This document shows, in pieces, positions 5,037 through 37,033 of a stretch of 40,970 nucleotides of DNA; the first letter of the stretch is position 1; each line of letters begins with the position of its first letter. The stretch comes from a virus. The notes beneath the pieces were generated by a model, which saw nothing but the letters and a program-made list of their open reading frames with translations, was not told the DNA's origin and did no database searches. The stretch lies in the IMG/VR virus record IMGVR_UViG_3300032046_000074, positions 1 to 40,970 of that record; one strand, 5' to 3'. The position numbers and the translations under genes are program-made.

Positions 5037-5491
5037 AGCGTAAAACGCGATACCTCGGATTCGGAAATACTGCGGCGTTAAAGCATGGCGGGTGTAGTAA
5101 CGGCAGCCGGACCCGCGCCTACGCTGTTTGGTGCTCCATGCGGGCACGATGCAGTAACCCAAAAGACCGGTGGTATAGGGACGTCAACGTTTGCAGACGG
5201 TGGGACATGTTTGAGAATTTTTTAGCAGATATGGGTGATCCGCCGACGCCTAAGCACCAAATTGATCGGATAAAGAATTACCGGGGATACTCCCCCGGTA
5301 ATTGCCGGTGGGTAACACCGAGCGAGAACGCGCTGAATAGAAGAACTACTCGCTGGATCACTTTTCGGGGGGAAACTAAGGCTATGTCTCAATGGGCTAT
5401 CGATATGGGTATCAATCTGCGTACGCTTAAATCGCGTATTGATAATTTAGGCTGGCACTTGGACGACGCGCTAGGCGGTAAATTCGAATGA
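5033..5491 (+). CDS. Mobile endonuclease-like protein (DRI-x-N...NCRW family)
   Basis: This 152-residue protein has the pattern RAYAVWCSMRARCSNP, then QIDRIKNYRGYSPGNCRWVT, shared with a family of phage proteins usually annotated as HNH-like or AP2-linked homing endonucleases. The C-terminal part (MSQWAIDMGINLRTLKSRID) looks like a helix-turn-helix that would read the target DNA. It is paralogous to the two ORFs at 33938-34725 but lacks their YGGRGIGIC segment, having WYRDVNVC instead. It is joined to the portal gene by an ATGA overlap and lies between portal and head-morphogenesis genes, so it is probably a mobile insertion. Catalytic activity is not certain. Confidence 0.65.
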   Translation: MKRKTRYLGFGNTAALKHGGCSNGSRTRAYAVWCSMRARCSNPKDRWYRDVNVCRRWDMFENFLADMGDPPTPKHQIDRIKNYRGYSPGNCRWVTPSENALNRRTTRWITFRGETKAMSQWAIDMGINLRTLKSRIDNLGWHLDDALGGKFE

Positions 5492-7558: not shown

Positions 7559-8637
7559 TAGAGAATTCAAAAGGCCAGAGATTTTTTGGGATGCACTTTT
7601 ATCCCGGTGTGGCTCAGTATTCCGAAGACGGAAAAGAGCCGTACCGCGTGTTTCTAAACGAAGACACAATCACGGCAATGGATGCGTCGTTTGAAGGGAA
7701 GCCCGTCTTTGTTATGCACGTCGACGAAGTCGAGCAGAGCCTAGATAAGCTGCGCGGCGAAGCGGATGGCTGGGTAGTCCGCAGCTTCTACAATGCGCCC
7801 GATGGTAAACATTGGTGCGAGTTTATGGTGGTTAGCGAGCGCGGTCTTCGCGCGATTAAGCAGGGCATGAAGCTATCAAACTGCTACATGCCTAAAAGCT
7901 TTGGCAGTAACGGCTTATGGAATGGTGTTAGCTACTCGAAAGAAATCAAAGGCGGCGAATACGAGCATTTAGCAATCGTCCCTAATCCCCGCTACGAAGA
8001 ATCCGTTATTATGGCTCCAGACGAATTTAAAAAATACAACGACGACCGGCTAATTGAGCTCAAACGGCTCGCAAACGATAAATCTAACGGAAAGGGTTTA
8101 AGCATGAAGCTTCAGTTATTCAAAAAAGCTAAAGTCGAAAACGACCTTAGCGAACTTTCGGTAATCCTACCGAAGTCTGGTCGCGAAGTAACCATTACCC
8201 AAATGGTTAACGAAGCCGACGAAAAAGAAGTGTCTAAGGACATGAACGCCGGTATGGCCGACCTCAGCCACAAAGTTAAATTAGCCGACGGCTCGCATTG
8301 CAACGTTGGCGAACTCGTCGAAAAACATAAGCTTATGTGCGACGAGCTCGAAGCTATGAAAAAAGACGCCTTAGGCGAAGCTGAAGAAAAAGAAGAGCCA
8401 AAGGCTAACGAAGAGGGAAAAGAAGAGCCAAAAGAAAACGACGAGGACGAAGACGCTAAGAAAAAAGCGTTAGAACTCGCCGCCCATGAAGACAAGGAAA
8501 TTAAAGAAGCCAAAGCGAAAAACGCTAAAGAAAAAGCAGACCGCTTAGCTAATGCCCATTTAGCGCCTGAAGAAACGGCCACGGTCGATTTGTCAGAGGA
8601 TAAAGTCGCTCGCGGTAGAACTCGTTATGGTAGCTAA
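7555..8637 (+). CDS. Prohead protease-scaffold fusion (DUF2213-like)
   Basis: From GTG 7555 (GGAG 8 nt upstream) the protein has 360 residues. The first about 165 residues match DUF2213: FFGMHFYPGVAQYSEDG, GKPVFVMHVDEV, KLSNCYMPKSFG, and YEHLAIVPNPRY. Invariant His and Ser/Cys positions fit a capsid maturation protease. Residues from about 184 to the end are charged and helical (runs of E/K around 285-340), as in a scaffold. An internal ATG at 8104 with its own ribosome-binding site would yield the scaffold alone. The C-terminus ends VARGRTRYGS; a second copy of this motif lies just after the stop in another frame. Confidence 0.8.
   Translation: MIENSKGQRFFGMHFYPGVAQYSEDGKEPYRVFLNEDTITAMDASFEGKPVFVMHVDEVEQSLDKLRGEADGWVVRSFYNAPDGKHWCEFMVVSERGLRAIKQGMKLSNCYMPKSFGSNGLWNGVSYSKEIKGGEYEHLAIVPNPRYEESVIMAPDEFKKYNDDRLIELKRLANDKSNGKGLSMKLQLFKKAKVENDLSELSVILPKSGREVTITQMVNEADEKEVSKDMNAGMADLSHKVKLADGSHCNVGELVEKHKLMCDELEAMKKDALGEAEEKEEPKANEEGKEEPKENDEDEDAKKKALELAAHEDKEIKEAKAKNAKEKADRLANAHLAPEETATVDLSEDKVARGRTRYGS
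8104..8637 (+). CDS. Nested scaffold protein from an internal start of the protease gene
   Basis: Inside the protease-scaffold gene, an in-frame ATG at 8104 follows GGAAAGGG with a 7-nt spacer, one of the better ribosome-binding sites in the window. It starts exactly where the protease domain ends, and would give 177 residues beginning MKLQLFKKAKVEND, rich in Glu and Lys. Lambda C/Nu3 is the classic example of such nesting. The call rests on the site and domain boundary, not on expression data. Confidence 0.55.
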   Translation: MKLQLFKKAKVENDLSELSVILPKSGREVTITQMVNEADEKEVSKDMNAGMADLSHKVKLADGSHCNVGELVEKHKLMCDELEAMKKDALGEAEEKEEPKANEEGKEEPKENDEDEDAKKKALELAAHEDKEIKEAKAKNAKEKADRLANAHLAPEETATVDLSEDKVARGRTRYGS

Positions 8638-8746
8638 CGCTAGAAAATCGAACGCTTCGACGTTAGACGTTTTGCATGAAGCGGCGTTAGCTCGCGGCAG
8701 CTCGCGATACGGGTCGATTCAAAACGGGGTTAGTATTTTTCTTTAA
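8627..8746 (+). pseudogene. Out-of-frame C-terminal remnant of the scaffold (39-codon ORF)
   Basis: An ORF in the +1 frame begins at 8627, overlapping the protease-scaffold stop. It contains ALARGSSRYGS, a near copy of VARGRTRYGS that ends the upstream protein. Removing one base at the TAA (8635-8637) would fuse the two into one protein carrying two copies of the motif about 25 residues apart. No ribosome-binding site is seen for it alone. It is best read as a C-terminal extension cut off by a single-base change, unless it is reached by frameshifting or is a sequencing error. Confidence 0.5.
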
Positions 8747-12137: not shown

Positions 12138-14957
12138 ATGGCTGATATCAAAATATCCGAACTTACAGCCGCCGGACCGCTTACCGGTACTGAAGACGTA
12201 CCAGTCGTCCAGGCGGGCGTTACCGTAAAAGCGACGGCTCAGGCTATCGCCGACCTCGCGAGCGTTAGCGGTACGTTGGCGGGCGATGTAACCGGACCGA
12301 TCGGCGCGAACGTCGTCGCTCTAGTCGGCGGCGCGACGGCAGCGAACGTCGCCGCAGCGACAGCGTTAGCTAACGCGGCGACCGCGTCAAATACCGCAGG
12401 TACTATCGCCAAACGTGACGGCTCCGGCGATATCGCCGCAACGACGTTTACCGGCGCTTTGGCTGGTAACGCAGCAACCGCGACGACTGCGGGTAGCGCG
12501 ACGACCGCCGGTAGCGCGACAACCGCCGGGACTGCTGCAAACTTCTCAGGGTCGCTAGTCGGCGACGTAACCGGGACGCAAGGCGCGACAGTCGTCGCGA
12601 CCTTTGACGCCACTACTAAGGGCTTAGTACCGCCTTCGGGCGGCGGTACGACTAACTTCTTACGCGCCGATGGTACTTGGACGACCGGCGCGGGCGGCGT
12701 TTCTTCGGTAAACAGCCAGACCGGCGTGGTCGTCCTCGATTCGGACGACGTCGCCGAAGGTGTGACAAATCTCTACTTTACTAACCCGAGGGTCCTAGCC
12801 GCTGCGACGCCTTTAGCAAATTCTAACTCGGTAGTCGCTCGCGACGGATCGGCAAATTCGGCTTTTGGTACGGTAACGGCTATCGCCTTTCAAGGCGACC
12901 TAAACAGCGCGAGCACTATCGGCGCGGTCGCGGTTTCGACGGTCCTAGCGGGCGTAGCGGCGGCTAACGCCGCGACAGCTAGCGCGACGTCCAACACCAT
13001 AGCAAAACGCGACGGCTTCGGCGCGTTAGCCGCGACCGGATTTAGCGGCGGCGACCTCGCGGGAAACGCCGCTAACGTAACTGGTGTAGTCGCAATCGCA
13101 AACGGCGGCTCCGGGCAGAGTAACCAGACAGCGGCGATAAATAACCTGACAAACGCGGGCGCGGCGACAGCGGGCGACGTATTCCAATACATCGGGGGAA
13201 ACGCTCAGTTTGCGCCTTTAGCTATATCCTATGCAGCGGTTAACGCTGCAATCGGAGCGCCTGCAAACTCGTTCATTTTCTCAGATCCAACATCTCAAGT
13301 CGTCGGCTACAGCCAATGGGCGATTGATCCGACGACGAAATTTTCTAGCGCGAATCCGACGTATCAGCCGAATAACTTAAGCGCCTATCCCGCAGCGTTT
13401 TCTTACAACGTCAACATCGACCCGCTGCAAGCATCGCCGAACGACGGGGTTAATATCCTGTCGGTTAACGCTAACCTAGATTCGGCTGCTACTGGCTTCA
13501 ACATGGGCACGGCTGGCCAAGCTGTTGCCTTGGTGCAAGGAAATTTTAACTACGTCGGTAACGGCTCGGCGTATGGCTCACTTTCCTACGCTACTTTCAA
13601 TTCGACAATCGGCAACGGCACCGATCCGGTATCCATCAAGGGTTTAGGCTACTTCTTCGGCTACGCCAACATCAACGCCAATGCGACAATCGACGGACAG
13701 ATTCAAGGTTACGGCTTTCAGCCAAACGTTAATGCAGCCGCGATTAGCACGAGTAACTTCAACGTTAACGTCTTTTATGACTTTGCAAATATCTCTAGGC
13801 CAGTACACGGATACACTGCTTTTGCATCAAGCCCGAACCTTTCCGAAGTTTCGAACAACTCGAATTATTCTGGTTTAGCACTTAACGGTAACTTTACGTT
13901 GATGGACGGGAATTCTAATTATGCCGGTATTGGAATGTCCCCAACGATAACCACGCTGGGCACTGGGGGATTTATCGGGCTCAATATGAACCCGACGCTC
14001 GGCACTTTTCCAGCGGCGTCTGGATTTAGCGGCATTTACGTCGGCGGTCAAATCACCACGATGGGTGTCGGCGGCAACTACCAGGGCGTTAACGTCAACC
14101 CCAACATTGCTACCGGGCACGGCTCCTTTACTGGTTACAACGCTAACCCGAAGATCGACGCTGGCAATGCTGACGTAACCCTTTATTCGGGAAGCATGAG
14201 CCAGGTCGTTACCTCCAGCACCAATAACTACGTCATGAATCTAAATGGCCTAACGGTAGGCGGCGCTCAGTCTGGTTTTGACGTGGGCAATATCAGGACA
14301 AATTTTAGCGGAGTACTCAACGCGTATAGCAGCGGCGGCGTAATCGGGCAGCATGTTCTGTTTACCGAGTACCACACACCAGCAGCAACAACGATCACGG
14401 GCAGCGATGTCATTATGAATATCCTGTCCCCTGACGTTGATATGGGCAGCCTAACATCGGCTGTAAATATGGGACCATCCGGCATAGGCGTTAACATGGT
14501 GGGATTCGCTGGCCAGGTTCACGGCCACGGGCAAATGGATCAGCTTAGCGCTTTGGTCGCTGGCGCGATCTTCCTAGACGACTTCACCTTACCTGAGTGG
14601 CGCGGTGTCAACTCGCTACTAATCAATGCTGGTTACACAGGAGCATGTACCAACGCGACGGGCTTCTACCATGAAGTAAGTGGCGCTGGGTTATTCGCTA
14701 CCAACCATAGAGGTATCTGGATTAATTCCGATATTGATAACTCGATGTACAAGCTAGCGATCAATACCGCGACAGGCAAAGTTACCAACGCAAGTGTGGG
14801 CGTAGAGATTGGCGGCACTGATAGAGTGTTGCTGCTATCTCGCCTTACCACTACAGAAAAGAACGCGCTGACAGCCGTAGACGGCATGTTGGTTTACGAT
14901 ACGACGTTAGGCAAATTTCAAGGCTATGAAGCAGGAAGCTGGGTATCGCTAATATGA
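12138..14957 (+). CDS. Large fibre protein in the neck region
   Basis: The 939-residue protein opens with DIKISELTAAGPLTGTEDVPVVQ, a module common at the start of phage fibres. Residues about 50-350 are Ala/Thr/Gly-rich with short repeats (TAGSAT, IAKRDGSG, YFTNPRV), as in shaft regions. Residues about 400-850 are Asn/Gly-rich and likely beta-helical. The end (RVLLLSRLTTTEKNALTA, then GMLVYDTTLGKFQGYEAGSW) is a tip motif seen in many fibres. It likely binds a surface receptor. It lies among neck genes, not with the tail fibres, so it could be a neck or head fibre. Codon use appears to change near 13490, from GCG/ACG-rich to more mixed, suggesting an exchanged distal part. Confidence 0.7.
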   Translation: MADIKISELTAAGPLTGTEDVPVVQAGVTVKATAQAIADLASVSGTLAGDVTGPIGANVVALVGGATAANVAAATALANAATASNTAGTIAKRDGSGDIAATTFTGALAGNAATATTAGSATTAGSATTAGTAANFSGSLVGDVTGTQGATVVATFDATTKGLVPPSGGGTTNFLRADGTWTTGAGGVSSVNSQTGVVVLDSDDVAEGVTNLYFTNPRVLAAATPLANSNSVVARDGSANSAFGTVTAIAFQGDLNSASTIGAVAVSTVLAGVAAANAATASATSNTIAKRDGFGALAATGFSGGDLAGNAANVTGVVAIANGGSGQSNQTAAINNLTNAGAATAGDVFQYIGGNAQFAPLAISYAAVNAAIGAPANSFIFSDPTSQVVGYSQWAIDPTTKFSSANPTYQPNNLSAYPAAFSYNVNIDPLQASPNDGVNILSVNANLDSAATGFNMGTAGQAVALVQGNFNYVGNGSAYGSLSYATFNSTIGNGTDPVSIKGLGYFFGYANINANATIDGQIQGYGFQPNVNAAAISTSNFNVNVFYDFANISRPVHGYTAFASSPNLSEVSNNSNYSGLALNGNFTLMDGNSNYAGIGMSPTITTLGTGGFIGLNMNPTLGTFPAASGFSGIYVGGQITTMGVGGNYQGVNVNPNIATGHGSFTGYNANPKIDAGNADVTLYSGSMSQVVTSSTNNYVMNLNGLTVGGAQSGFDVGNIRTNFSGVLNAYSSGGVIGQHVLFTEYHTPAATTITGSDVIMNILSPDVDMGSLTSAVNMGPSGIGVNMVGFAGQVHGHGQMDQLSALVAGAIFLDDFTLPEWRGVNSLLINAGYTGACTNATGFYHEVSGAGLFATNHRGIWINSDIDNSMYKLAINTATGKVTNASVGVEIGGTDRVLLLSRLTTTEKNALTAVDGMLVYDTTLGKFQGYEAGSWVSLI
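12481..12537 (+). repeat. Tandem 18-nt repeat in the fibre shaft
   Basis: About three imperfect 18-nt units (each encoding TAGSAT, the last TAGTAA) follow one another inside the fibre gene. They keep the reading frame. Such repeats can change in number and so alter fibre length. Confidence 0.6.
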
Positions 14958-30788: not shown

Positions 30789-31709
30789 TTACTTTCGATA
30801 CCTCACGCTTGAGAAGCCTTCAGCCGCGACCGGTAACCCTTCAGCCCATGAAGGTAGCGCGACCATAAGGTCGCAAAAGGCGCGAATCGAGCCGCCGCCT
30901 TTTAGGTCGCGCTCAGCAATTAATTCATCGTGTACCGATAACACAATCGACCAGGGACCAGCGGCTTCAATTCTAAGCATAGCCTCAGCCATTAGATCGC
31001 GGGCGATCGCCTGGACGACGTTTTCGACGAGCCGACCGCCGTACGTCTTCGATTCGACCCACTGCCTTGAAAGCGGATCGACGCCGTAATGGTGTAAGAT
31101 CGGCGATTTCTCGCGGCTCGTCGCAAATTTAAATCCCCATTTTACCGTCGGTCCGTAGTACGCTAAGCGGCGTCCAGACGGTAGTTCGCAGAATAAGAAG
31201 TTATTCTTAACGTACCATTTTGTGCGGTTAACGGTATAAGTTTTCCCCGGGTTATCCACAGCCGCAATAGCAGCCCGCTCGATATTACTCCAAAGGATGG
31301 TTACCGGACGGTGAGCCTCGCGGTACGAAGCGATCGCCGCTTTGGCGAGCTCTTCGCTAACTTCTCTACCCTGCGCTAGACAAGTCGCGGCGAACTTCGG
31401 CGCTCCCATCGAATAGCCCGCTCCGAGAATCACCGATTTTCCGAGCCATCGTTTGGCTGAATCGACCGACGTAAGCGGGACGTTATAGATTTTCGCCGCT
31501 TGTTCAACGTATAGGTCGCGACCTTCGCGGAAAGCCCGTAGCCCGTCCTCGTGCTTAGCGACCCAGAATAGAACGCGGGCTTCGATCGCGGCGTAATCCG
31601 CACAATCAAGAACTTTTCCGGGGGGTGCTATGATTACGCTTCGAAGTAGATCCGAGAACACGGCCATAGGATCGCCGTAAAGGGCGCGTATCCATTCTAG
31701 TTTATTCAT
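30789..31709 (-). CDS. polA: DNA polymerase family A, polymerase half (split gene, C part)
   Basis: The 306-residue protein carries the palm and fingers: motif A DYAAIEAR (D38, E43), motif B R87...K91...Y99 in KRWLGKSVILGAGYSMG, and motif C VHDE (H260-E262). All catalytic residues for nucleotide transfer are present. It lacks the exonuclease and thumb, which are in the gene at 32167-33237. It begins NKLEWIRALYGDPMAVFSDLLR, which continues directly from the end of the other half. Its ATG overlaps the stop of the intervening HNH gene (ATGA). The two halves together (662 residues) have the length of an intact phage polymerase and would have to associate. Confidence 0.9.
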   Translation of the reverse strand: MNKLEWIRALYGDPMAVFSDLLRSVIIAPPGKVLDCADYAAIEARVLFWVAKHEDGLRAFREGRDLYVEQAAKIYNVPLTSVDSAKRWLGKSVILGAGYSMGAPKFAATCLAQGREVSEELAKAAIASYREAHRPVTILWSNIERAAIAAVDNPGKTYTVNRTKWYVKNNFLFCELPSGRRLAYYGPTVKWGFKFATSREKSPILHHYGVDPLSRQWVESKTYGGRLVENVVQAIARDLMAEAMLRIEAAGPWSIVLSVHDELIAERDLKGGGSIRAFCDLMVALPSWAEGLPVAAEGFSSVRYRK

Positions 31710-32170
31710 TTCTTCGGCACCTTCTTAGCGGCGTAATACTTTCGCGAACGCGCCCGGATTTTCTCGCGGTTTCTTGCGCTACTCTCATTCGCCCTTAAGC
31801 GTTTACAGATTACGCATACCCTAGCGCCTCGCGATATACGAGTATTCTCGGGCGTTAACTCATGCCCGTAGCTACAGGTACCGCGCCTCGCGTAATTACC
31901 AGCTACGCCAAAGCCGCGGAGGACATTTACTTTATGCGGTACAGGCTCTAAATGCTCTGGGTTAACGCAGTTTCGAATACGGCATAAATGGTCTATTGTA
32001 AATCCTTCGGGTATTTTACCGATACATATTTCGTAAGATACACGGTGAGCTTTACAGTTCGAATTGATCCAGCGTAGGTTTCCGTAGCCATCCGAGTTTA
32101 TACTACCTGTCCATACCCAGCGGGTACTCGTTTTCTCTACGTAGGACCAAAACTTCTTGGTAGTTCTCAT
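31706..32170 (-). CDS. HNH homing endonuclease splitting the DNA polymerase
   Basis: The 154-residue protein has the HNH_3 core TIDHLCRIRNCVNPEHLEPV, followed by a Cys-rich zinc segment (GTCSYGHEL...CVICKRLRA) and a basic tail (ARNREKIRARSRKYY). It is coupled by ATGA overlaps to both polymerase halves, so the inserted unit consists of the ORF alone, without intron or intein sequence. It is clearly paralogous to the HNH gene at 33227 on the other side of the exonuclease half. Confidence 0.88.
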   Translation of the reverse strand: MRTTKKFWSYVEKTSTRWVWTGSINSDGYGNLRWINSNCKAHRVSYEICIGKIPEGFTIDHLCRIRNCVNPEHLEPVPHKVNVLRGFGVAGNYARRGTCSYGHELTPENTRISRGARVCVICKRLRANESSARNREKIRARSRKYYAAKKVPKK

Positions 32171-33237
32171 TCGCCGCCTTCTGATAACACTTCGAGTATA
32201 TAATCAATATCTTCCTGCTTTAGCTTTGGGCGTTTTAAATTCTGCGGCTGCACACCAAGGCCGCCCCAACGACCCGTCGACGCAGCATGGTACAGCAGAA
32301 TATCGCGGACGCGGGAATCGTGACGTGAGCGCCGCTCAAACGCCTGGTACTTCGCGGTTGAGGTTTTCGATATCGCTTGCCGATATTCGAGCATTTGCCT
32401 AGCGGGACCGGGCGGGACCAGGTCGCCCGCGAGCGCGTCCTCGACAGTCTTCTTGCGAAGGTCGGGCAGGTAGACGCCTTCGCTTTCGATAAACCCTAGG
32501 ACGCCGTCGCGCTGCGTCGCCGACGTTAACGCTCCGAAAGTTAGTTCTTGCGTTTTAAAATTAATTGCTGTCGTTTCTTCGTCGATTAACCTTAGCGCCG
32601 TATTGATTAACGGGCGGTCGACCGCAAAACCGCGTAGGTTTATTTTCTGGTCTAACTCCCAGACGCGCCGCTCGCTTGGTGTTAATAGTGGGACGTTCAT
32701 AAATAGCTCGACGGTCGTATCAACGTCTTGCTTACAGTACTCGACTAGCCGCGCTAACTCGCCCGGGTCGTCGTGACGGGTTTTAGGATTATTTTTGGAC
32801 GGCTTTCTAGGTTTACACCATTTTAGAATTAGACGCCGCCCGTCCATATCTTTCTGTACCGCTAGCTTTAACGCTTTCGCCGCGCCTTCAAGGTTACGCG
32901 GTAGGGCTAACGCCGCAGCGAGCGACGCCGTGCAAAGCCAACGCTCAGGCGGTATCGTTACGCCGAGTACGCCGCTAGTTATTACATTCTCAAAATAAGC
33001 GTTATGGGCGACGACGATATCAGCCAGCCGCATTGCGTTTGCTAATTGGTGTATTTGACTAGGTAGACAGCTTTGCGTTTTAGCCGTCCGCAGCGTTTCG
33101 CGTGTACCGATCCGCCAAGCCGCGCAAATGATTTCGGTCGACGGATGTATCGAATACTCGTACGCGCCGCAGCGTTTTAGGTCTACTTCAGAGTAAGTTT
33201 CGTAATCAATAATCATGTACACTTGGCTATCGGCCAT
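32167..33237 (-). CDS. polA: DNA polymerase family A, exonuclease half (split gene, N part)
   Basis: The 356-residue protein has the three 3'-5' exonuclease motifs: D11-x-E13 in IIDYETYSEVDL, N79...E83 in VVAHNAYFEN, and Y167...D171 in EYCKQDVDTT. After the exonuclease comes a thumb-like region ending in STGRWGGLGVQPQNLKRP, a segment that in intact enzymes stands shortly before motif A. The protein stops at SEGGE, where the polymerase half resumes. It overlaps the HNH genes at both ends (11 nt and ATGA). It alone could only proofread or degrade DNA. Confidence 0.9.
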   Translation of the reverse strand: MADSQVYMIIDYETYSEVDLKRCGAYEYSIHPSTEIICAAWRIGTRETLRTAKTQSCLPSQIHQLANAMRLADIVVAHNAYFENVITSGVLGVTIPPERWLCTASLAAALALPRNLEGAAKALKLAVQKDMDGRRLILKWCKPRKPSKNNPKTRHDDPGELARLVEYCKQDVDTTVELFMNVPLLTPSERRVWELDQKINLRGFAVDRPLINTALRLIDEETTAINFKTQELTFGALTSATQRDGVLGFIESEGVYLPDLRKKTVEDALAGDLVPPGPARQMLEYRQAISKTSTAKYQAFERRSRHDSRVRDILLYHAASTGRWGGLGVQPQNLKRPKLKQEDIDYILEVLSEGGE

Positions 33238-33697
33238 AGTAAGCCCGTAGATATTCGCGTTGACAGGTACGACAAACTCTCTGCGATTTATTATTCTTAC
33301 GCTTAAGAATTTTTAAATTATCGCCGCTAAACTCGTGTCCGCGAATACAGTGAGTCTTACGCGAATGGACCGCGCTAGGGCTCTCGCCTCGTAAAACATT
33401 TTCTTTATGGGTTACCGGTTCTAGGTGGTCCGGGTTAACACAGTCGCGCGTCTTACATAAGTGGTCTAACTCTAAACCTTCGACAATTTGCCCGCGTAGT
33501 AGCGTGTACGCGAGTACGTGTGCCGTTAACGCTTTACCGTACCAGCTAACTGTTCCGTACCCGGTATTATTTTTACTACGCTGCCAAAGCCAACAGGTTT
33601 TAGTCTTCTTAACGCCGAGCCAAAACCATTCGCTCTCGGGTATATCCGAAGACCTAAAACGCTTCTTAAGTTGTTCGGGCTTTAACCTCTCGCTCAC
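33227..33697 (-). CDS. HNH endonuclease upstream of the polymerase exonuclease half
   Basis: The 156-residue protein (GTG start, overlapping the previous stop) has GTVSWYGKALTAHVLAYTL, then the HNH_3 core LELDHLCKTRDCVNPDHLEPV and a zinc segment (HCIRGHEF...CRTCQREY). It shares the core and the following HKxNVLRG with the HNH protein at 31706. Its last 11 nt overlap the polymerase start. It may be the source or the copy of the insertion that split the polymerase. Confidence 0.86.
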   Translation of the reverse strand: MSERLKPEQLKKRFRSSDIPESEWFWLGVKKTKTCWLWQRSKNNTGYGTVSWYGKALTAHVLAYTLLRGQIVEGLELDHLCKTRDCVNPDHLEPVTHKENVLRGESPSAVHSRKTHCIRGHEFSGDNLKILKRKNNKSQRVCRTCQREYLRAYYGR

Positions 33698-33867
33698 TCT
33701 TCACACTCGTCAGAGATATAATTGTCCCGGCAATACTGGTTACCATTGCCGTCTTGCTTACAAGCTTCATAGGCTTCGTTTTGACGTGTGCAACTTACCT
33801 GCTGTTTGATGGCCTTGAACGCACCAACCGATACCATGATCGCCACTAGAATATAAAATCCGATCAT
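33694..33867 (-). CDS. Small membrane-anchored Cys-containing protein
   Basis: From ATG 33867 the protein has 57 residues: a membrane segment (IGFYILVAIMVSVGAFKAI) and a polar tail with four cysteines (SCTRQNEAYEACKQDG, YCRDNYISDECEE) that could form disulfides in the periplasm. It overlaps the preceding 25-residue ORF (ATGA) and the following HNH gene (GTGA). The function is unknown. Confidence 0.5.
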   Translation of the reverse strand: MIGFYILVAIMVSVGAFKAIKQQVSCTRQNEAYEACKQDGNGNQYCRDNYISDECEE

Positions 33868-33941
33868 TTCCCCACCGCCATAAATCCAACGATGGAAAGC
33901 CCGAGGAAGGCTAGGTATAGGGCGGCTTGGTAGTCGGTCAT
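33864..33941 (-). CDS. 25-residue hydrophobic peptide
   Basis: ATG at 33941 to TGA at 33864-33866 encodes a very small protein with one membrane segment (AALYLAFLGLSIVGFMAVG). It overlaps both the upstream endonuclease frame (ATGA at 33938-33941) and the next gene (ATGA at 33864-33867), which supports translation by coupling. Tiny membrane peptides in phages often affect the host envelope; here that is only a possibility. Confidence 0.4.
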   Translation of the reverse strand: MTDYQAALYLAFLGLSIVGFMAVGK

Positions 33942-34324
33942 TTGGGTTCACCATACCAAAAGAATGAAGGCCGATAGTTTTTAAAAACAAACAGGTGCCG
34001 CATTATCTTTACGTCATCTTCTGTGAGCCGGGCGCTACGCCTATTGCGGCATTGCTCTTTTGCTGTTGACCAGCGGCAGTTCTCGGGTGATTAGTTCCCG
34101 TCATTGTCAATGCGATCTAGCGATAAACCTTCGACATAGCCGCTGCCTAACGCCCAAGACTTAAATGCAGGATATGTTTCCCAATCGGCGCATATCCCAA
34201 TGCCCCTACCGCCGTAATCTTTATAAGCCTTGTTCTTAACGCTCAAGCACCGCATCCTCATACCGTTCCATACGTAATATAGCTTTTCGGTATTGCCATG
34301 CTTGGCTCCGCCGTGCCTGATCAC
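33938..34324 (-). pseudogene. Mobile endonuclease with an in-frame stop (DRIDNDGN family)
   Basis: The frame starts at GTG 34324 and encodes LYYVWNGMRMRCLS, YGGRGIGICADW and SLDRIDNDGN, then a TAA at 34091-34093 where relatives have a tyrosine. Beyond it the same frame continues with SPENCRWSTAKEQCRNRRSA and a helical end (LTEDDVKIMRHL) to the TGA at 33938-33940, which overlaps the next ATG. One base change (TAA to TAT or TAC) would restore a protein of 128 residues. The N-terminal fragment (77 residues) lacks the NCRW part and is probably inactive. Confidence 0.78.
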
Positions 34325-34725
34325 TTGAGCGCCTCCAACTTAGCTATGGCTTCAGATAAATTCCCAAACCTACCGGGATGCAGTAACGCTAATTGTTGCG
34401 CAGCCTCAATTACGTCTAGCATCGCATCAACCCACCGGCAGTTATTGGGACAATAACCTTTGTTATTGTCGATTCTGTCGAGATACAATCCCTCGCGAAA
34501 ACCGCTTTGAGCAGCCCATTTAGCAAAGGCAGAATATGAGTTGAGCCATTCCTTGCAGATGCCTATCCCCCGCCCCCCATATAAATGGTATCCCTTATGA
34601 TTAGCATTGAGGCACCTCGCTTTCATAGATCTATAGCAAGTGTAGGTTAACGGCCTGACTCTAATCCCATTGACGTGTTTAGATGTTTGGTATTCGCCAC
34701 TAGCTTTCTTAAACCAACGGATCAC
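34321..34725 (-). CDS. Mobile endonuclease-like protein with unrelated C-terminus
   Basis: The 134-residue protein has TCYRSMKARCLN, YGGRGIGICKEW and YLDRIDNNKGYCPNNCRWVDA, as in its neighbour at 33938 and the gene at 5033. After NCRW, however, it lacks the usual T-x-x-E-Q-x-x-N segment and has MLDVIEAAQQLALLHPGRFG and a helical end (LSEAIAKLEALK) instead. It may have captured the 3' end of another gene. It is joined to both neighbours by GTGA overlaps. Confidence 0.65.
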   Translation of the reverse strand: MIRWFKKASGEYQTSKHVNGIRVRPLTYTCYRSMKARCLNANHKGYHLYGGRGIGICKEWLNSYSAFAKWAAQSGFREGLYLDRIDNNKGYCPNNCRWVDAMLDVIEAAQQLALLHPGRFGNLSEAIAKLEALK

Positions 34726-34928
34726 TTGTCCACCTCTTTCCTCGGACCAAACAGCTTATCAAGCCCTTGGATTACGCAGCGCGGGCATACATCACGTTTT
34801 TGCTCGGGGCCGACCATAATATCTGCTGTGTATTCTAATCGAAGAGCTGTGTAAGTAGATGGTTGCGTCAGGCCAAATGGGAGGTTATCCTCATACCCAC
34901 CACAATAGCTGCATTCAAACTTAGTCAT
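34722..34928 (-). CDS. Small zinc-ribbon protein
   Basis: From ATG 34928 the protein has 68 residues with two Cys pairs: FECSYCGG near the start and DVCPRCVIQGL near the end, spaced for one zinc site. The pattern occurs in small phage DNA- or RNA-binding proteins. The ATG overlaps the stop of the preceding ORF (TAATG), and its stop the next GTG. Confidence 0.55.
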   Translation of the reverse strand: MTKFECSYCGGYEDNLPFGLTQPSTYTALRLEYTADIMVGPEQKRDVCPRCVIQGLDKLFGPRKEVDK

Positions 34929-35035
34929 TACCCACCACACAAACTAAGGTGAAACGCTAGCCGCATCGCGGCACTGGCTAGGATAAGACCGACGCCAAAA
35001 CAAAAACCGTTGACGATCGTAATTGCAAAGTTCAT
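34928..35035 (-). CDS. 35-residue hydrophobic protein
   Basis: ATG at 35035 to TAA at 34928-34930 encodes a small protein with one membrane segment (VNGFCFGVGLILASAAM). It fits exactly between the methyltransferase gene (stop 35037) and the zinc-ribbon gene (TAATG overlap). Its tight spacing on both sides supports it being a gene. Confidence 0.42.
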   Translation of the reverse strand: MNFAITIVNGFCFGVGLILASAAMRLAFHLSLCGG

Positions 35036-35036
35036 T

Positions 35037-35711
35037 TTAGTAAGCCCTAGAGAAATAGTTACGGTGAATAAAAAATAGGTTTTCGCCCATACGACAATAC
35101 AAATGAAATTCCTTTTCGCGCAGCATAGCCGCCATGCTATTAGTTTCCGTCCGGCGTGTTTCGACGACGATTACAATCGGCTTGCTTTTACTGAAGTCGG
35201 CGGCGGCTAGTACCGCGTAGTCGTAGCCTTCAATATCCATTGTTAATAGCTCAGGGAATACTCCCGCGCAATGCTGCTCGACGATTTGGTTCAGCGTAAC
35301 AATCGGTAGCTTAATAATGCTTCGTACCTGCATAACGCCTTCAAGCGTCTTTACCTCGTCGGCGCTAAAGGTATTGCGACCCGACGTATCGCTGTACATA
35401 TAGAATTCGGCGACGCCTGGACTAACGCCGACGCCGACGCCAACGTTGGTGTTAATATCGCCGGGTCGTAGCTCGTTAAACCGCTTAATCAAGTTTGGAT
35501 TCGCTTCGACGTTAACGCCGCGCGAGCCGCGATCATAGAGCAGCTTGGTATTACTGATAGCTTCGGGATCATGAGCACCAATATCTAAGTAGCTCGGGCG
35601 GTCAATGCCTAAGAGCTTAAAGATATTTAAGATCATATAATCATCTCCATGCTGACTATACGAAATATGCCCGAACGCCTGATCTTTATGCCCGCTGTAA
35701 TACGTACTCAT
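35037..35711 (-). CDS. FkbM-family methyltransferase
   Basis: From ATG 35711 the protein has 224 residues. The SAM-binding motif is SYLDIGAHDPEAISNT, followed by GVNVEANPNLIKRF and, later, LLTMDIEGYDYAVLAA, the FkbM signature. These enzymes usually O-methylate sugars or small molecules. Possible targets are host surface glycans or a phage product; with the GT9-like gene at 24972 it hints at surface glycan change. It has a tandem Val-Gly run (NVGVGVGVSPG) from a short DNA repeat. ATGA joins it to the HNH gene upstream. Confidence 0.82.
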   Translation of the reverse strand: MSTYYSGHKDQAFGHISYSQHGDDYMILNIFKLLGIDRPSYLDIGAHDPEAISNTKLLYDRGSRGVNVEANPNLIKRFNELRPGDINTNVGVGVGVSPGVAEFYMYSDTSGRNTFSADEVKTLEGVMQVRSIIKLPIVTLNQIVEQHCAGVFPELLTMDIEGYDYAVLAAADFSKSKPIVIVVETRRTETNSMAAMLREKEFHLYCRMGENLFFIHRNYFSRAY

Positions 35712-36181
35712 TTCCAATTAACCCCTCTCGCGATCCGGCTACACTGAACCGGACTAATATTAAATTGTTTCGCGGTCTCGGCCATACCCCACCATCGGTG
35801 GGTTCGATTAAGGTATCGATTCCGGATTTCGTTAGCTACGTCTTCTGAGACTTTAGCGCGAGGATTTTTAGAGCGTTTATGCGCGTGATTATTACCTACG
35901 TCCATAGCCATATTCTCGCTACGGCTTCCCCAGCGTAAGTTCGAAGGCGCGTTATTTTGCGGGTTATCGTCTAAATGCATACATTCAGGTTTATTCGAAG
36001 GCGGAAGCCCGTGGAACGCGAAAGCTACTAGCCTCGATACGAGTCGCATTTTACCACCTATACGTAGACCGAGATAATTTCGAACTCGTTTATAGGGCTT
36101 ACGTACGACGCCGTTAACTCGGATACGGCCTAGACTAGACGCTTCGCAATTAAATCCGGGTACGGGCTTCCAGACTTCCAT
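35708..36181 (-). CDS. NUMOD4-HNH endonuclease with helix-turn-helix
   Basis: From ATG 36181 (AAGGGGGAT 8 nt upstream) the protein has 157 residues. It starts with NUMOD4 (EVWKPVPGFNCEASSLGRIR), has an HNH core (LVAFAFHGLPPSNKPECMHL, then DDNPQNNAPSNLRWGS), and ends with a DNA-binding helix-turn-helix (VANEIRNRYLN..., TAKQFNISPVQCSRIARG). This is the standard layout of phage free-standing homing endonucleases. TAATG and ATGA overlaps tie it to both neighbours. Confidence 0.87.
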   Translation of the reverse strand: MEVWKPVPGFNCEASSLGRIRVNGVVRKPYKRVRNYLGLRIGGKMRLVSRLVAFAFHGLPPSNKPECMHLDDNPQNNAPSNLRWGSRSENMAMDVGNNHAHKRSKNPRAKVSEDVANEIRNRYLNRTHRWWGMAETAKQFNISPVQCSRIARGVNWK

Positions 36182-36315
36182 TATTTTATCCCCCTTACTA
36201 AACGCTCGCAAATCGGGCAGACCATGAATACATTACGCCCGCGATCTTTTACCGGAATCTGGTGAAAGCCAAGCCCGCAGAAGAATTTTCTAACGCAGTA
36301 AATAATGTACTTCAT
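36181..36315 (-). CDS. 44-residue protein with its start codon in an inverted repeat
   Basis: ATG at 36315 has AAAGGG 6 nt upstream. The product (KYIIYCVRKFFCGLGFHQIP, then VFMVCPICERLVRG) has a CPIC knuckle and may bind zinc. The start codon lies in the 5' arm of a long inverted repeat whose other arm is inside the gene. Its stop overlaps the NUMOD4-HNH start (TAATG). Confidence 0.5.
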   Translation of the reverse strand: MKYIIYCVRKFFCGLGFHQIPVKDRGRNVFMVCPICERLVRGIK

Positions 36316-36336: not shown

Positions 36337-36987
36337 TCAAAAATCGTATTCGTCGCCCGCGCTAGAATCCTTCGCGTCGTCGTAGCTAGAAGCGTCTTCG
36401 CTAGTGTCTTCGACCGCGTCGAATACACTTGCGGCGTCGCGGCGTCCGCTGAATGCTTCGCCGTCGCGGGTCTTCTGAATATTCTGCAACGAAAAGCTAA
36501 CGCCTTTGTTACCGGCTTTGTCGTAAGCGAAAGCGATAACTTCAGCGCGAGCGTAACAGCCAGCATAGAAATCCTTAGGGTTTAGAATCGGCTGGTTTGA
36601 CGGTCCTACCAGACCAGGCTGAAGCTTAGAACTAGTACTGACAAATATAGTACCTTCATAACCTTGCTTGTCTGCTTTTTCGTCGCCGTCGCGAAACGGC
36701 ATACGAAGGTTTTTAGGCCATTTCTCACGCGGACCCCATTTTTCTTCGGCTGCATTTTTAACCGCCTGTTTTAGTGAATTACGTTGTTTGTTTGCTGGTG
36801 TACCTAAATCCGTTTTCTTGTCGAAGAGCATAACCAAACTATACTTTGGCTCTTGACCTTCAAACGCCTTCGGCTCAAAAATCGCTGGAAAGCTAACTCT
36901 AAATTCATGCGTGACGCATTTAACGCTTTCGATTTTACTGTTACCTTTTGACGCGGACGCGCCCGCTTTTGCCTGGACTACTGCCAT
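36337..36987 (-). CDS. Single-stranded DNA-binding protein (DUF2815)
   Basis: From ATG 36987 (AAGGGGAA upstream) the protein has 216 residues. It has VKCVTHEFRVSFPAIFEPKA, PKYSLVMLFDKKTD, MPFRDGDEKADKQGY and FYAGCYARAEVIAFAYD, NKGVSFSLQNIQKTRDGEAF (in part): the DUF2815 OB-fold pattern, related to T7 gp2.5-type proteins. The acidic tail ends DEYDF, as in SSBs that contact polymerase through a C-terminal aromatic residue. It protects ssDNA during replication and stands next to the DUF2800 nuclease, as in many phages. Confidence 0.87.
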   Translation of the reverse strand: MAVVQAKAGASASKGNSKIESVKCVTHEFRVSFPAIFEPKAFEGQEPKYSLVMLFDKKTDLGTPANKQRNSLKQAVKNAAEEKWGPREKWPKNLRMPFRDGDEKADKQGYEGTIFVSTSSKLQPGLVGPSNQPILNPKDFYAGCYARAEVIAFAYDKAGNKGVSFSLQNIQKTRDGEAFSGRRDAASVFDAVEDTSEDASSYDDAKDSSAGDEYDF

Positions 36988-37033
36988 ACTCAATTCCCCT
37001 TAATTAATGTTTCGAGACTATTCTCGTTAGGAC

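Follow-up and report, generated by a model that had tools for sequence, protein, structure and literature searches.

Two genes for a family-A DNA polymerase separated by a free-standing HNH endonuclease gene in a metagenomic phage

Split essential genes in phages and the locus described here

It is already known that homing genes can split essential phage genes without splicing. In phage Aeh1, nrdA is split by the free-standing HNH gene mobE, with neither an intron nor an intein, and its halves assemble into an active enzyme (PMC2988022). The mobE gene of T4 shares a start/stop overlap (UAAUGA) with its upstream gene, for which translational coupling has been proposed, and the topoisomerase genes 60/39 with mobA represent another homing-gene split of an essential gene without splicing (PMC2988022).

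DNA polymerases have also been found in two parts. In the T4-related Aeromonas phages 25 and 44RR, PolB is encoded as 43A and 43B; the two proteins of phage 25 co-purify and polymerise. At the split site, phage 25 has a seg homing gene and 44RR an untranslated stretch, and the order of events is in doubt (PMC2988022). The OM43 phages MEP401 and MEP402 encode a family-A polymerase in two ORFs with one small ORF between them (PMC10580990). Finally, in MIJ3 a split intein accompanied by an HNH gene interrupts PolB, an arrangement described under the term "fractured genes" (PMC6892783).

The locus examined here (30789-33237) lies in a single 40,970-bp metagenomic phage record, IMGVR_UViG_3300032046_000074, the whole of which is called the window below. 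It consists of three ORFs on the minus strand: a gene for the exonuclease, thumb and first palm segment of a family-A DNA polymerase (33237-32167; 356 aa, with C-terminal ...YILEVLSEGGE; the exo half); a free-standing HNH endonuclease gene, HNH2 (32170-31706; 154 aa, GC 48%); and a gene for the palm and fingers with motifs A, B and C (31709-30789; 306 aa; the pol half). Two 4-nt ATGA stop-start overlaps on the same strand join them, one between the exo half and HNH2 (32170-32167), where AGAAGG precedes the start codon of HNH2 by about 9 nt, and one between HNH2 and the pol half (31709-31706), where AAGG precedes that of the pol half by about 10 nt. All three ORFs and both overlaps were found exactly where an initial annotation had placed them.

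That annotation had likened the locus to mobE, and the likeness holds: a free-standing endonuclease ORF lies precisely between the halves of an otherwise complete, essential enzyme, with no self-splicing element. The Aeh1 case differs in concerning a ribonucleotide reductase of demonstrated activity, whereas the window encodes a DNA polymerase known from its sequence. The 43A/43B pair resembles the window as a split replicative polymerase, with a homing gene at the break in phage 25 and the same doubt as to which came first, but is a family B enzyme with a GIY-YIG seg gene. MEP401 and MEP402 share the gene layout (exonuclease plus N-terminal part, intervening ORF, C-terminal part), although their intervening ORF is of unknown function and is not an HNH gene. 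MIJ3 likewise has a homing gene between polymerase halves; unlike the window, it concerns family B, and its halves carry intein segments, so that protein splicing would rejoin them. The novelty that had been suggested for a DNA polymerase was therefore overstated, as published splits exist (PMC2988022, PMC6892783, PMC10580990), and the window is a striking but not a unique example. In the openly licensed literature searched, we found no family-A polymerase gene that harbours a free-standing HNH gene but lacks a splicing element.

We propose, with a probability of about 0.74, that this phage makes its replicative family-A polymerase as two associating chains, with a tolerated break in which the HNH gene rides. 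The chain carrying the exonuclease, thumb and first palm segment and the chain carrying the palm core and fingers would each fold and then associate into one proofreading polymerase. The HNH gene, of a homing type, would be transcribed with the halves as one operon, in which translation of the exo half, HNH2 and the pol half would be coupled through the two ATGA overlaps.

Completeness of the two polymerase halves

In searches against the PHROG 17 DNA polymerase profile, the exo half matched positions 671-989 and the pol half matched positions 991-1231; the halves are therefore consecutive pieces of one polymerase. The pol half also matched the Pfam family DNA_pol_A (PF00476; 7e-20). The catalytic residues of all six motifs of a family-A polymerase with 3'-5' exonuclease are present, as the initial annotation had reported: Exo I (D11/E13), Exo II (N79-F82-E83) and Exo III (Y167/D171) in the exo half, and motifs A (D38), B (R87/K91) and C (H260-D261-E262) in the pol half. 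The enzyme departs from the family in not being a single polypeptide, since it is encoded by two ORFs with the HNH gene between them.

The halves were also aligned with 52 intact phage relatives. Among residues considered near-invariant (conserved in at least 95% of these relatives), 53 out of 55 are kept in the window, within the range of the intact genes, and one of the two that are missed looks like an end-of-alignment artefact. The end of the exo half, ...PKLKQEDIDYILEVLSEGGE, and the start of the pol half, MNKLEWIRALYGDPMAVFSDLL..., join without loss of residues, so the continuity between the halves that had been read from the sequence is borne out. For the linker from the QPQN motif to motif A, the window has 59-60 aa (23 + 37 with the start Met) and the intact relatives have 46-63 aa, with a median of 54. 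By sequence, the two halves together have nothing missing and nothing added relative to an intact phage family-A polymerase.

A group I intron, an intein or a split intein containing the HNH gene would instead give one full-length polymerase. Such arrangements exist in phage polymerases, and one relative (L200, described below) appears to combine a split intein and a GIY-YIG gene. In the window, however, the 461 nt between the junctions consist entirely of the HNH ORF, leaving no room for such an element, as the initial annotation had pointed out; the insert is closed in both the exo frame and the pol frame, the linker residues are all accounted for, and intein blocks are absent. No Rfam family matched the polymerase-HNH stretch; the single weak match, at 34096-34169, lies outside it and far below the gathering score. 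We thus ruled out a group I intron by the lack of an Rfam match and of space, and an intein or split intein by the absence of intein segments from the halves and by a linker as long as in intact genes. This explanation is the least probable of those considered, with hardly any chance of being correct.

A degenerate, non-functional polymerase or an assembly artefact also appears very unlikely, if slightly less so. The assembly rests on one record, no close copy of the phage having been found in the collections searched, and scans with the pol protein or the HNH2 protein of the window returned no close relatives of it. Against this, both junctions are clean and have start codons, all catalytic residues are kept, the near-invariant residues are within the range of intact genes, and relatives share the same break. 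Moreover, both halves are closer to the genome in codon usage than the HNH genes are. The phage could also use the host polymerase instead of a two-chain enzyme; no further phage polymerase was detected in the window.

Position of the break and state of the gene in relatives

As a structural reference, we used a model of the intact relative L010 (pLDDT 95.1), which matches Klenow-type structures. In this model, the break maps to residues 342-343, in a turn predicted between helix 332-341 and helix 344-351, with the QPQN motif (N323) before it and motif A (D378) after it. Among intact relatives, identity in the linker around the break is 0.18-0.25, versus 0.47-0.50 in the flanking conserved regions. 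The linker is absent from the cellular Pol I structure 8jrb, where the match to the exo profile is followed directly, at residues 360/361, by that to the pol profile; in E. coli Pol I, the QPQN-motif A linker presumably comprises 26 residues. Because the turn is short and lies away from the active-site motifs, in a linker that is variable and specific to phages, a break at this point would be tolerated. The pol half on its own gave an AlphaFold2 model with a pLDDT of 94.1. Judging from family-A structures, both chains would contribute to the palm, so the halves would have to meet for activity, in agreement with the assembly that had been postulated.

The polymerase was found in one ORF containing both parts at 189 of the 211 loci scored, the remaining loci being split, cut by contig ends or represented by one part only, and some loci repeating the same contig. 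All 18 loci from bacterial genomes were intact. Several phages with unusual labels (PspYZU01, YMC16/01/N133, RHph_N65, Scuro, YB23, AAT-1 and Donnerlittchen) each proved to have one intact gene. The "end2|exo" of CMP1 was rejected as a parallel, its exo being a separate exonuclease gene beside an annealing-protein gene.

The same turn is broken in several other lineages. In L001 and L009, which come from two different metagenomes, the halves overlap by 17 nt with nothing between them (exo end ...VIHAIQA, pol start MPSKLEWIR). In L201, a 59-aa ORF (5046-5225) that overlaps the exo stop lies in between, and matched no known family in profile searches. In L169, both halves are on the same strand, separated by about 8 kb. 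Finally, in the clade of L151, L159, L162, L188 and L195, the halves are unlinked: the pol half either lies about 10 kb away on the opposite strand, as in L159 and in L190, a near-copy of L188, or was not found on the contig. In the tree, the lineages split at this turn were placed apart, and the joint placing of L169 and L201 was weak (0.199). The window was sister to a group of L001/L009, L003 and L004-L006 (support 100/99), within which the split L001 grouped with the intact L003 and L004-L006 (support 100/100).

A two-chain enzyme would be viable, because same-turn two-gene versions recur in relatives, some of them with halves about 10 kb apart. Support for its assembly also comes from a break that has survived repeatedly, from the unlinked halves of one clade and from the activity of the split Aeh1 and phage 25 enzymes. 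The two-chain enzyme of the window is probably functional.

Other arrangements were observed as well. The break in L023 lies slightly further along than the turn broken in the window. In L231 (1400-2446, plus-strand partner at 12501-13478, the former on the minus strand), L232 and L233, the exo and pol halves are unlinked and about 8-10 kb apart, on opposite strands in L231 and L232, in what is apparently a natural two-subunit PolA. L200 (4001-7340) has its break earlier, at TGRW; its halves bear intein-like N and C segments, as judged by eye, and enclose a GIY-YIG endonuclease gene. It reads as a split intein and a "fractured" polymerase gene. In L033 (6001-7900), L032, L035-L041 and L046, the split in the polymerase gene falls within the exonuclease domain, near residue 146: the reading frame changes there, the two ORFs overlap by 11 nt, and all contigs of the clade share this arrangement.

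The pol half of L001 itself contains an intein-like insert (7739-8704; Cys1 ... VVAHN/Cys), for which Pfam Hint support was weak. In the middle of this insert, another frame encodes a 259-aa HNH endonuclease (7855-8634, plus strand; PHROG 374, 4.8e-28). When the HNH ORF was permuted synonymously 20,000 times, only 4 of the resulting sequences left the intein frame open. A comparable case is the "ShiLan" element, which also has an HNH gene out of frame (PMC11855218), but in L001 the HNH ORF is located within an intein-like element.

The HNH genes and the order of events

HNH2 matched Pfam HNH_3 (6.8e-12) and PHROG 826 (2.6e-44), which identifies it as an HNH-domain protein; its homing activity is presumed from its family. 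It is one of five minus-strand HNH genes within 31706-36211, a region bounded by the pol half and a gene for a ssDNA-binding protein (36337-36993). The GC content of the HNH genes of the window is 46-49%, versus 53-54% for the two polymerase halves. HNH1 (33697-33227) overlaps the exo start by 11 nt and is 45% identical to HNH2 over 128 aa. HNH4 (34725-34321) is of the PHROG 3377/374 type and starts with a 4-nt overlap; HNH3 (34324-34091), its truncated relative (54% identity over 61 aa), is joined to it by another. HNH5 (36211-35708) matched HNH_3 and, weakly, NUMOD4. A gene for a FkbM-type methyltransferase (35037-35717; Pfam 2.5e-18) also lies among the HNH genes of this replication region.

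The starts of HNH1 to HNH4 each overlap the upstream gene by 4 nt, and overlaps of this length occur at 11 of the 50 gene junctions in the window. Because they are so common in this genome, an ATGA overlap is unremarkable by itself and carries little evidential weight. Genes related to HNH2 often run into the start of the gene that follows: by 14 nt in GageAP, upstream of DNA polymerase I, by 4 nt, twice, in CN1A, and by 17 nt in CMP1. Among the loci fetched, no relative carried an HNH gene at the same junction; HNH homologues near polA but outside the exo-pol span were found in L049 (upstream), L067, L160 and L189.

Whether insertion of the HNH gene caused the split, or the gene entered a polymerase that was already split, stands at roughly even odds. 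An insertion into an uninterrupted gene, bringing stop, start and ribosome-binding site and thereby making the split, falls a little short of an even chance in our estimate. HNH2 sits exactly between the halves with coupled junctions, most relatives are intact, as are most deeper neighbours in the tree, and Aeh1 nrdA/mobE provides a precedent (PMC2988022). However, at least four other lineages show a break at this turn but no HNH gene in it, and the other HNH genes of the cluster are likewise located at gene boundaries with 4-nt overlaps. Moreover, removal of one ATGA-to-ATGA unit would leave an ordinary split pair with an ATGA overlap. The claim in the initial annotation that the insertion "had to supply" a stop for one half and a start for the other is thus not established, L001/L009 and at least three further lineages being split and HNH-free.

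Equal weight is given to a split that came first, as in L001, with the HNH gene later entering the junction of two genes, as it may have done. The nearest relatives, L001/L009, show exactly such an HNH-free state, related HNH genes occur at gene starts elsewhere (GageAP, CN1A; near polA in L160 and L189), and the same ambiguity was raised for 43A/43B (PMC2988022). On the other side, L001 groups with the intact L003 and L004-L006, so that one ancestral split needs a re-fusion. By parsimony, two separate splits in the window and L001 cost the same as one split plus a re-fusion; the L001 split would be either independent of that of the window or ancestral with later re-fusion. An HNH-free split in close relatives, which the initial annotation had held would count against its reading, is present in L001/L009 but not in L003 and L004-L006, which have the uninterrupted gene for which it had proposed to look.

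The recurrent use of one turn as a break point is the most interesting part of these observations. We somewhat favour the view that phage family-A polymerases have a general fission point in the linker, meaning the helix-turn-helix that connects the QN motif to motif A, that two-subunit PolA arose there about five times by various routes (the window, L001, L201, L169 and the L151-type clade with unlinked genes), and that the promoter-less HNH cassette of the window, with its built-in start/stop overlaps, made or exploited such a break.

The window offers a clean case of a selfish gene inside a phage replicative polymerase gene without any splicing element. Together with its relatives, it forms a comparative set of polymerase genes that are intact, split bare, split with a small ORF, an HNH gene or an intein, or present as unlinked halves, which makes the question of whether gene fission or homing-gene invasion came first testable. 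The tolerated break site in family-A polymerases could, moreover, serve to build two-part polymerases.
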